Below are positions 22,601-63,247 of a stretch of 64,000 nucleotides of DNA, in pieces. The stretch comes from Dysidea avara (lineage: Eukaryota > Porifera > Demospongiae > Dictyoceratida > Dysideidae): the NCBI RefSeq assembly GCF_963678975.1, contig NC_089273.1, forward strand, positions 25,996,356-26,060,355, read 5' to 3'. Within the stretch, counting starts at the first letter, position 1; each line of letters opens with the position of its first letter. The translations under genes and the position numbers were made by a program. The notes below the pieces were generated by a model, which was not told the DNA's origin, did no database searches, and saw only the letters and a program-made list of their open reading frames with translations.

Positions 22601-25600
22601 AGAAAGGCTACATTCCCTCAGTGAGGCATTTATATAGTAGTGCAACTGTATGCACCTGCATACTGATTAAAGCCAATAAATTTTTGCTAAAAGGTTACCA
22701 GCTTAGGGGAATAATTGTTGGTAAAGTAGTATCCTTCAAAGTTTGTTCTAGTTTCCACTGTAGTAGCCTGCAAATACATAAGCCATAGGCGGTGGAGACG
22801 GGGGGGGGGGGGGGGGCACTTTTTTGGGACACTGTTTGCAAGAAAAGATCAAGATACTCTAATAGAGCAGTCACACTATTCAGAGAAGCAGTGTAGCAAA
22901 TTACTTAGCTACTTATGTGTAGTTATAAATAAGGAGGTGTAGAGCAGCTATTTTCAGCAGGCTGTGACCTTTTTTTTTTTTGGTCTTCACTGGCTTGGCC
23001 CCCTCACTCTTTGGCCTGCTCCACTGCCCCTGACATAAGCTGTTATCCATCTTTTCTGTTTAGTATATGTACATGTATCACTAATTTTATTACATGTATT
23101 TCTACCACAAGGCACTGCATGCCCACCACTCGATGTTCCTGATAATGGAATGATTGACTGCTCAATTGGAGGTGATGGAATAGCTGTTCCTGGTGACACA
23201 TGTACCTACACTTGTGATGATGGTTACATGGTGGTTGGTGACATGACTATAACATGTGGTGATGATGGTTCTTGGAGTGATAACACTCGCTGTAAACTAA
23301 TACGTACGTACTGTAGTCTTCATTGTGCTCTCATTATCATTCATAGTAATAGTAAAATCAATCATGGTAAAATACAATGTATAGATGCAGTTTAGCATAT
23401 TTACATTATTTTACCAGTATTTCTTCCTTGGTTTTGAACTGTAGGCAAGTGCTCTCGTAGATTACATGTGAAAATTTGAAAAAACACTACCATGATAAAT
23501 CCATGTTTCTGTATTGTGTCCAGTTAGAAATATTATACTCCATCCTCACCAATAGAATCCCAGTATAAAATAAAATAAATAATATTCCCCAGTAACATGC
23601 CTGACTGAAGTAATGATAGTCATAGGCATTACTAGAGCCACCCATGATTGAGATAATGCAACTCCTACATTGCAAGCATAATCACCCTTTTCATCTGATC
23701 ACTTTAAACCGGGTTCCTCACTTTAAACTGGGTAGGTCACAAACAGTGGACCTGGCAGGGTACCAAGGACCTGGGACCTGCGGGAATCCGACTCTTCTTG
23801 GAATTTTATGCACTTCACAGTATTCTATACTTGTACTTTAACACTACCTTATGTTGTTTCAAAACCAAAAAAAAAATCCACCATGTTCTAATCTCTAGGT
23901 TTACCTTTCTTCACATGTAAAGGTGCACAAAGATTTACTGTGCAGAGGAGAAAGACATGGCTTTAGGAATTAGTACACAATCGATAACACTGATAATTGT
24001 TCAGATATTTAAAGCTGGTTTTTATCAACACGATTACACCTGTTGTATAATACCTATTATAAGCATCAAAACCAGGGATATGATATATATTATGTATGTG
24101 TGTGGTCATATACGTAATAATACAATAAATATTCAATGTATTGTTGATGTATTGTCTTCAATGTATGTTCTCTGCTTCCACAGGATGTGAAGTGTTACGT
24201 GCTCCTCAATATGGTTCAATCAATTGTTCACTGGGTGATGATGGAATACCCACTCCTGGAGACAGCTGTAGTTTCTCATGTGATGAAGGCTACAATATTG
24301 GAGACACTACTGCAACTACCTGTAATAATAAGGGCAACTGGGCACCAGCTTTAGCAGCTGAATGTGTGATTGGTAAGTATTGTATGCACAATTGATAGCA
24401 TTAATGTGTCATACGTACCAACATACGTACATTATGTTGTTATGCTTTGTATCATAGAAAAAGCAAAGCATCAAATTTACAAGAAAGTTGTACCTATCTG
24501 AATATGTAGTTTCAGGCCTTCAACCAGTATTTAAGTTTGTGTGGGATTTTTTTAGGCCTGAGTCAAATATGCTCAAAATTTTGTCTAAAATGCTCTCAAG
24601 AATTTCCAAAAAAATTTTCATCTATTATTATTGAAAAATTGTAATGGCAACTTCCAGGCCCACATACATTCTTCTGGAGCCATGGGTGCACTATAATAGC
24701 ACAATAATAGCACAATATGAATGTGATATGTGACCAAAAGCATATTGTATGTGATATTAAATACTGTTCAAATTTCAGATGGTTGTCAAGTAAATTCAGT
24801 TGTTGATGGATCTATCACTTCAATGAATAAGAGCATGACAGTCACTTTCACTTCTGATAGTACAAATCCAAATATATTTTTTGACTGCAGAATACACAAA
24901 AGGGACTTTGCGAATTGTAAGTAGATTGATATATTAACACGCCATACAGTGTGTATTGCCTTCTGTAGGCACCAGTCCCCACACCTATACAGAAGATGAT
25001 GGTGTGAGAGATGGAGAAAATATTGTTAGGGTGCGAGCTCAGTGCTCTGGTCAAATCATTGATCGTCCAACAAAAGACTTAGACATTGGTATATTCATGG
25101 AATTAGTGTGATATTACTGTAGGTACTATCAATAATTTTGAGCATAACAAGTGCCTGAAACACCAAGTATAATGCTAGCTACATAATAGGTAGACTAATT
25201 GTACAATAGTGAGGACAGGTGTCAAGGAAAAAGTTGGTAGTACAGTCATATCAGTTACTCTAATAGAGTAGTCAGGTATTATTGTTACTATAATTAGTAA
25301 ATACGTGTAAGAACTTTTGTTCTAAAATGTACTCATTTGTGTTTACTGTTTTCTGCAGATATATGTAGTCCCCTCACTCTTGGAAATGGGACAGTTAATT
25401 GTGAGCTAGGGGACAATGGAGGTCCTAATGCTGGAGATAGTTGTACTCTGACTTGTGATCGTGGCTACATTTTGGATGGTAGTGACTCCAGGATGTGTAC
25501 AGATCTTGGGACATGGACTGGTGATGAAACAACATGTACTGCCCGTAAGTATGTATACATGATCGTGTGAAACTTCTAACAAGTTGCCAGGTGTATGTTT

Positions 25601-63247: not shown

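Follow-up and report, generated by a model that had tools for sequence, protein, structure and literature searches.

A 64,000-base stretch of the genome of the sponge Dysidea avara (contig C2, positions 25996356-26060355; here called the window) carries seven copies of a short cysteine-rich unit, termed module X, interspersed with CCP domains, and raises the question of whether this unit is an animal domain of its own or a relative of the Ig-like repeats frequent in bacterial surface proteins. Our analysis indicates that X is probably a eukaryotic form of the CTSP-type Ig-like repeat of bacteria, which lies close to Big_13, and that it is braced by disulfides and carried in tandemly duplicated, putatively secreted CCP proteins. 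The window belongs to an assembly that totals 550.8 Mb across 108 contigs and was covered by our searches of the sponge's own genome. The copies extend from position 24779 to position 62912 of the window (Table 1), a span that appears to comprise two genes, whose exons were joined by inference from genomic DNA rather than from transcripts.

Splice sites, reading frames and DNA patterns bore out the description of X in the initial annotation of this stretch. All seven copies encode four cysteines in two exons, separated by a GT-AG intron that falls inside the codon of the CTSP cysteine after its first base (T/GT or T/GC, phase 1); intron length ranges from 52 to 1428 bases, and the donor is GTAAGT in six copies and GTGAGT in one. 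Twelve columns are invariant across the copies, the four cysteines and TSP among them. The core of the consensus first proposed, FxCx[LI]....[FY]xxCTSP, is present at fixed spacing in 7/7 copies (with YxC in place of FxC in copy 2), but its periphery is looser: the residue before the first cysteine is G in only four copies (in copy 3 across the splice junction) and D in three, and copy 7 has VQARC in place of VRxxC. Two DNA patterns devised after the copies were known, one for half A (FxCx[LI]....Fx2C ending TGT[AG]AG) and one for half B (AG/GY-T-S-P-x-T-[YF]), each gave seven matches on the + strand of the window, exactly at the seven copies, with no match on its - strand and a mean of 0.0 in 100 first-order Markov sequences. 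An outer donor, GT[AG], was found in phase 1 in all six copies besides copy 3 by a script that examined phase 1 alone, and the outer acceptors also fit phase 1; copy 3 stops at a TAG (35418-35420), and no outer donor was found there. Both exons are thus apparently phase 1 at both ends, so that the module or either half could be gained, lost or duplicated in frame. Among cluster paralogues, the proportion of nonsynonymous differences (pN) was lower than that of synonymous differences (pS) in 5/5 exon sets, compared without a significance test (for example, 0.020 versus 0.152 for exon B of copy 2); a sixth set, exon A of copy 2, was missed by the extraction pattern. The lower pN fits translated, conserved sequence.

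The relation of X to bacterial repeats was examined at the level of profiles. The DNA pattern for FEC-x-LD-x3-F-x2-C-T-x-P matched at least 120 prokaryotic genome stretches, spanning, among the matches listed, Myxococcota, Actinomycetota, Chloroflexota, Nitrospirota, archaea and others. The 120 loci contained 235 motif matches, 228 of them without a stop. The initial annotation had proposed a comparison between hidden Markov model profiles; we compared the seven copies with one bacterial row per locus (113 rows, picked by motif), and hhalign aligned X with the bacterial CTSP repeats at a probability of 98.4% (E 4.9e-14, 79 columns, identity 24%). The profile score was 76.0, compared with at most 11.3 in 40 shuffles. 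Because these bacterial rows had been selected by motif, the seven-copy X profile was also run alone against 97 genomes of one bacterial phylum; it found matches in 43 of them at E <=0.001 (best E 9.3e-12), a count that includes the genome chosen as the centre of the set. The reading frames that contain the matches listed are between 286 and 3,626 residues in length, most of them being long open reading frames (ORFs) of repeats.

The two extra cysteines of X noted initially are its first and fourth. Cysteines were counted in 218 of the stop-free bacterial repeats (113 loci): none has a cysteine at the fourth position of X, and none has both the first and the fourth. Some bacterial repeats (loci L002, L044, L099 and L116) have another extra cysteine pair, directly before the FEC motif. 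Among 19 paralogous sponge modules on other contigs, scored by eye, nine have both the first and the fourth cysteine and three have neither, two of the latter looking bacterial in other respects (for example, CTSPKTYNNLTPGTHTVNIQA). Some of the 19 are near-copies of one another (L127/L129; L148/L149). The count set aside the C2 cluster (near-copies of the window copies), loci L126, L128 and L131 and one module each in L123 and L125, in which exon B was not found, and others of unclear reading in L123, L124, L148, L149 and L151. The frequent, if not invariable, co-occurrence of the first and fourth cysteines in these sequences suggests one added disulfide. The FN3 topology brings the N terminus and the FG loop together at one end of the domain, which makes a bond between these two cysteines plausible.

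The intron in the CTSP codon is widely shared in this genome but is not universal. Of the 39 matches that copy 5 gave at E <=1, 28 fall on C2 and the other 11 on further contigs, and X exons recur on both strands of C2 from about 25.74 to 26.07 Mb. Nine of the 11 places outside C2 match the exon A profile at <=0.0013 in a small search set; L122 was retained by motif, and L121 was discarded, its sequence being that of an unrelated RING-type ORF. Exon A-like frames with a GT donor in the same cysteine codon were found on C1, C5, C6, C8, C9 and C10, in a listing that requires such a donor and so cannot reveal its absence. Besides those on C2, a script located the matching exon B on C6, C8 and C9 (L123, L127, L129, L130 and L141), and inspection by eye located it in L124 and L125. 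These intron-bearing paralogues comprise two- and four-cysteine types. The intron, initially described as fixed, is constant in the cluster and in paralogues on several contigs, but relatives on C7 (L122, 15.32 Mb) and C10 (L148/L149, 23.03-23.05 Mb) have four cysteines and read through CTSP without it, which excludes the intron as a family-wide mark; their fourth cysteine is displaced by a few residues. A tree of 114 rows and 86 columns (97 prokaryotic and 17 hand-chosen sponge modules) separated the 17 from all other rows in 98% of 200 bootstraps, a support that is unsettled given the few columns; the prokaryotic rows were poorly resolved. Elsewhere in the genome, module relatives share a frame with a thrombospondin type 1 domain (L124, C9:20.88 Mb), and giant single-frame ORFs of 2,224 to 4,407 residues occur at L146 (C15:8.17 Mb), L147 (C1:3.64 Mb) and L150 (C1:3.17 Mb); a 184-residue stretch of L146 is above the Big_13 cut-off (6.2e-10).

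The fold of X was approached through its bacterial relative. Of 85 non-redundant bacterial rows, 45 were listed, and 35 of these were used for fold prediction. The bacterial CTSP repeat was confidently predicted as an FN3/Ig-type beta sandwich, and the structural neighbours of this model, the only one compared, are solved beta sandwiches (such as 4a2l, 3pdd, 2yn3 and 4tn9) that include animal FN3 domains. By extension X, with its roughly 80 residues, may also adopt an FN3/Ig-type beta sandwich; when the X profile was searched against PDB sequences, the best E was 0.19. Big_13 (PF19077) matched 16 of the 35 bacterial CTSP repeats at E <=0.01; the OmpL47-type NCBIfam model NF047446 matched 22/35, below its cut-off in the one row with a score shown. 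The CTSP subtype of Big_13 shares with X the FxCxLD...F..CTSP core and is much like it in length and spacing; it forms tandem arrays within long ORFs. X differs in its two additional cysteines, its introns and a mosaic setting of animal type. The predicted fold of the bacterial relative is that of FN3, PKD and Y_Y_Y beta sandwiches; no Pfam line leads from X to these families. CCP/Sushi domains (PF00084) occur in the same inferred proteins and likewise have phase 1 exon borders and four cysteines; they differ from X in cysteine spacing and motifs and in occupying a single exon each. Four copies of X run against Pfam at E up to 10 matched no family, and at E up to 1 none of the seven copies gave a line for Sushi, HYR, FN3 or Big_13. 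The copies gave no clear Pfam match to a known metazoan domain. We consider it unlikely that X is a divergent eukaryotic FN3, Ig or HYR domain, with the bacterial form derived from eukaryotes or both forms from an ancient FN3-like domain: the animal FN3 neighbours of the bacterial model, HYR matches in 2/35 bacterial rows at E up to 0.01 (best 0.003) and one X copy at Ig-like_KY (0.053) are in keeping with such an origin, but X itself lacks a Pfam FN3 or HYR line, and it is the X profile that retrieves the bacterial CTSP repeats.

Several observations weigh against the favoured reading. No copy reaches any Pfam cut-off, Big_13 included, so that membership rests on profile comparison, and the weak lines that X does give are to DUF7101 (0.026) and Ig-like_KY, one copy each. 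Plasmid tblastn with single copies yielded no match approaching significance (lowest E among those listed, 3). In viral contigs, none of 12 candidates withstood an alignment scan, and the motif pattern had no match there either. The plasmid matches of copy 3 (two records, E 5 and 6) and copy 5 (40 records, the 20 listed being bacteriocin-type genes and similar, E 3 to 4) were taken as chance. The remaining seven of the 19 paralogues depart from the co-occurrence of first and fourth cysteines: one has the first without the fourth, four lack the fourth and carry another cysteine immediately ahead of strand B, and two have the fourth with an uncertain first. Exon B of copy 6 contains an in-frame TGA where five other copies have G and one has D, and gene 2 may not be fully functional; possible accounts are damage to the gene, a stop that is polymorphic among individuals, and skipping of this exon, which is in frame. 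Finally, with the 16-residue motif masked, the hhalign probability fell to 13% (E 0.0005). The masked profile nevertheless scored 21.2 in unchanged register, compared with at most 6.3 in 40 shuffles. Least probable is an independent animal origin with convergence on the bacterial motif: no Pfam family connects X with the bacterial repeat, their identity is low and the motif holds most of the signal, but convergence is rejected mainly because the masked comparison exceeds all 40 shuffles, and further because copy 3, the closest-looking copy, aligns gap-free, both as judged by eye, with bacterial repeats from FxC to the fourth cysteine and the same genome holds a two-cysteine paralogue of almost bacterial form. 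The likeness of X to bacterial repeats, claimed initially from a shared string, is thereby supported by sequence comparison as homology at the profile level, beyond that string. X is best filed as a real, coherent module, without Pfam recognition in the copies scanned, that is a eukaryotic variant of the bacterial repeat; no description of it was found in the parts of the literature seen among the matches listed.

The two inferred gene models show the setting of the module (Table 1); their introns and their NIDO, VWD, C8, TIL and Sushi domains are those of an animal genome. Gene 1 (about 10.4-35.4 kb) begins with a signal peptide-like segment, followed by a NIDO domain, two VWD-C8 units with TIL and an array of CCPs; the order detected after these is X1-CCP-X2-CCP-CCP-X3, which a stop closes. 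Gene 2 starts near 45.9 kb and continues for about 9.6 kb past the window end, with a signal peptide-like segment, CCPs and X; its last X, from C2:26069787 onward, is of the copy 3 type with a stop. CCPs therefore do stand between X copies, as first described, but the alternation is not strict, two CCPs separating copies 2 and 3. A CCP exon and its intron form a tandem at 19635-20624 (402-base unit, 2.5 copies, 91%), a recent duplication or conversion, and about 420 bases of CA repeat (12632-13053) directly precede the NIDO stretch. Between the genes, at 39791-42832, are ORFs of the long interspersed element type, the larger matching RVT_1 (2.8e-33) and an endonuclease. A 2.4 kb array with units of about 31, 61 and 92 bases occupies 49487-51871, and a tRNA-Pro gene (anticodon cgg) is predicted on the - strand at 5685-5783.

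Table 1. Module X exons and other features of genes 1 and 2, in window positions.
Feature	Positions	Strand	Basis or remark
X copy 1 exon A	24779-24916	+	splice sites, frame, cysteines, half-A DNA pattern
X copy 1 exon B	24969-25088	+	splice sites, frame, cysteines, half-B DNA pattern
X copy 2 exon A	28104-28232	+	splice sites, frame, cysteines, DNA pattern
X copy 2 exon B	29661-29777	+	splice sites, frame, cysteines, DNA pattern
X copy 3 exon A, terminal module of gene 1	34243-34374	+	splice sites, frame, DNA pattern
X copy 3 exon B, TAG at end	35293-35420	+	splice sites, frame; terminal counterpart in next gene
X copy 4 exon A	57866-57994	+	splice sites, frame, cysteines, DNA pattern
X copy 4 exon B	58094-58210	+	splice sites, frame, cysteines, DNA pattern
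X copy 5 exon A	58789-58917	+	splice sites, frame, cysteines, DNA pattern
X copy 5 exon B	59143-59259	+	splice sites, frame, cysteines, DNA pattern
X copy 6 exon A	60066-60194	+	splice sites, frame, cysteines, DNA pattern
X copy 6 exon B, in-frame TGA 60597-60599	60520-60636	+	splice sites, frame
X copy 7 exon A	62585-62713	+	splice sites, frame, cysteines, DNA pattern
X copy 7 exon B	62799-62912	+	splice sites, frame, cysteines, DNA pattern
Gene 1 start, signal-peptide-like N terminus	10423-10488	+	by eye
Gene 1 NIDO domain, C-terminal part	13112-13375	+	Pfam 3.2e-14
Gene 1 VWD and C8	14125-15165	+	Pfam 1.1e-24 and 1.4e-17
Gene 1 second VWD and C8	15637-16725	+	Pfam 7.1e-33 and 1.1e-16
Gene 1 TIL domain	16920-17276	+	Pfam 1.9e-9
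Gene 1 CCP array before X copy 1	18115-24372	+	motif
CCP exon between X copies 1 and 2	25359-25544	+	acceptor by eye
CCP exon between X copies 2 and 3	30695-30880	+	Pfam Sushi 1.4e-8
Second CCP exon between X copies 2 and 3	31675-31872	+	motif
Gene 2 start, signal-peptide-like N terminus	45900-45962	+	by eye
Gene 2 CCP array before X copy 4	46129-56487	+	motif
CCP exon between X copies 4 and 5	58509-58694	+	motif
CCP exon between X copies 5 and 6	59474-59659	+	motif
CCP exon between X copies 6 and 7	61700-61886	+	start approximate; automatic acceptor deemed wrong

If X is indeed a eukaryotic form of the bacterial repeat, the two cysteines that bacteria share with it, the second (FxC) and the third (CTSP), would staple the C-C' hairpin, and the added first and fourth would link the beginning of strand A with the far end of strand F. 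CCPs commonly bind proteins or sugars. Inserted in tandemly duplicated, putatively secreted proteins, X would most likely separate CCPs as a rigid spacer braced by disulfides, or serve there as an adhesive unit, in the extracellular matrix or at surfaces, a role proposed from domain context; a secreted CCP chain broken by braced Ig-type units would make a stiff extracellular protein of adhesion or recognition. A tentative history, which we hold as possible rather than probable, is that an early ancestor captured a bacterial surface-type repeat, which gained an intron precisely in its disulfide cysteine codon and, at some stage, another disulfide as a brace; as a mobile pair of phase 1 exons it would then have spread through secreted CCP, VWD and thrombospondin proteins. 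Two-cysteine, four-cysteine, intron-bearing and intronless forms exist in one genome, so the order of these steps could be established, and the passage from a prokaryotic-type repeat to a shuffled eukaryotic exon module becomes testable. The finding links a domain unrecognised by Pfam in the copies scanned with a repeat that is common across bacteria, and it defines a four-cysteine unit to seek in the extracellular proteins of other species; if the proposed history is true, it would trace how a bacterial repeat came into animal exon shuffling.
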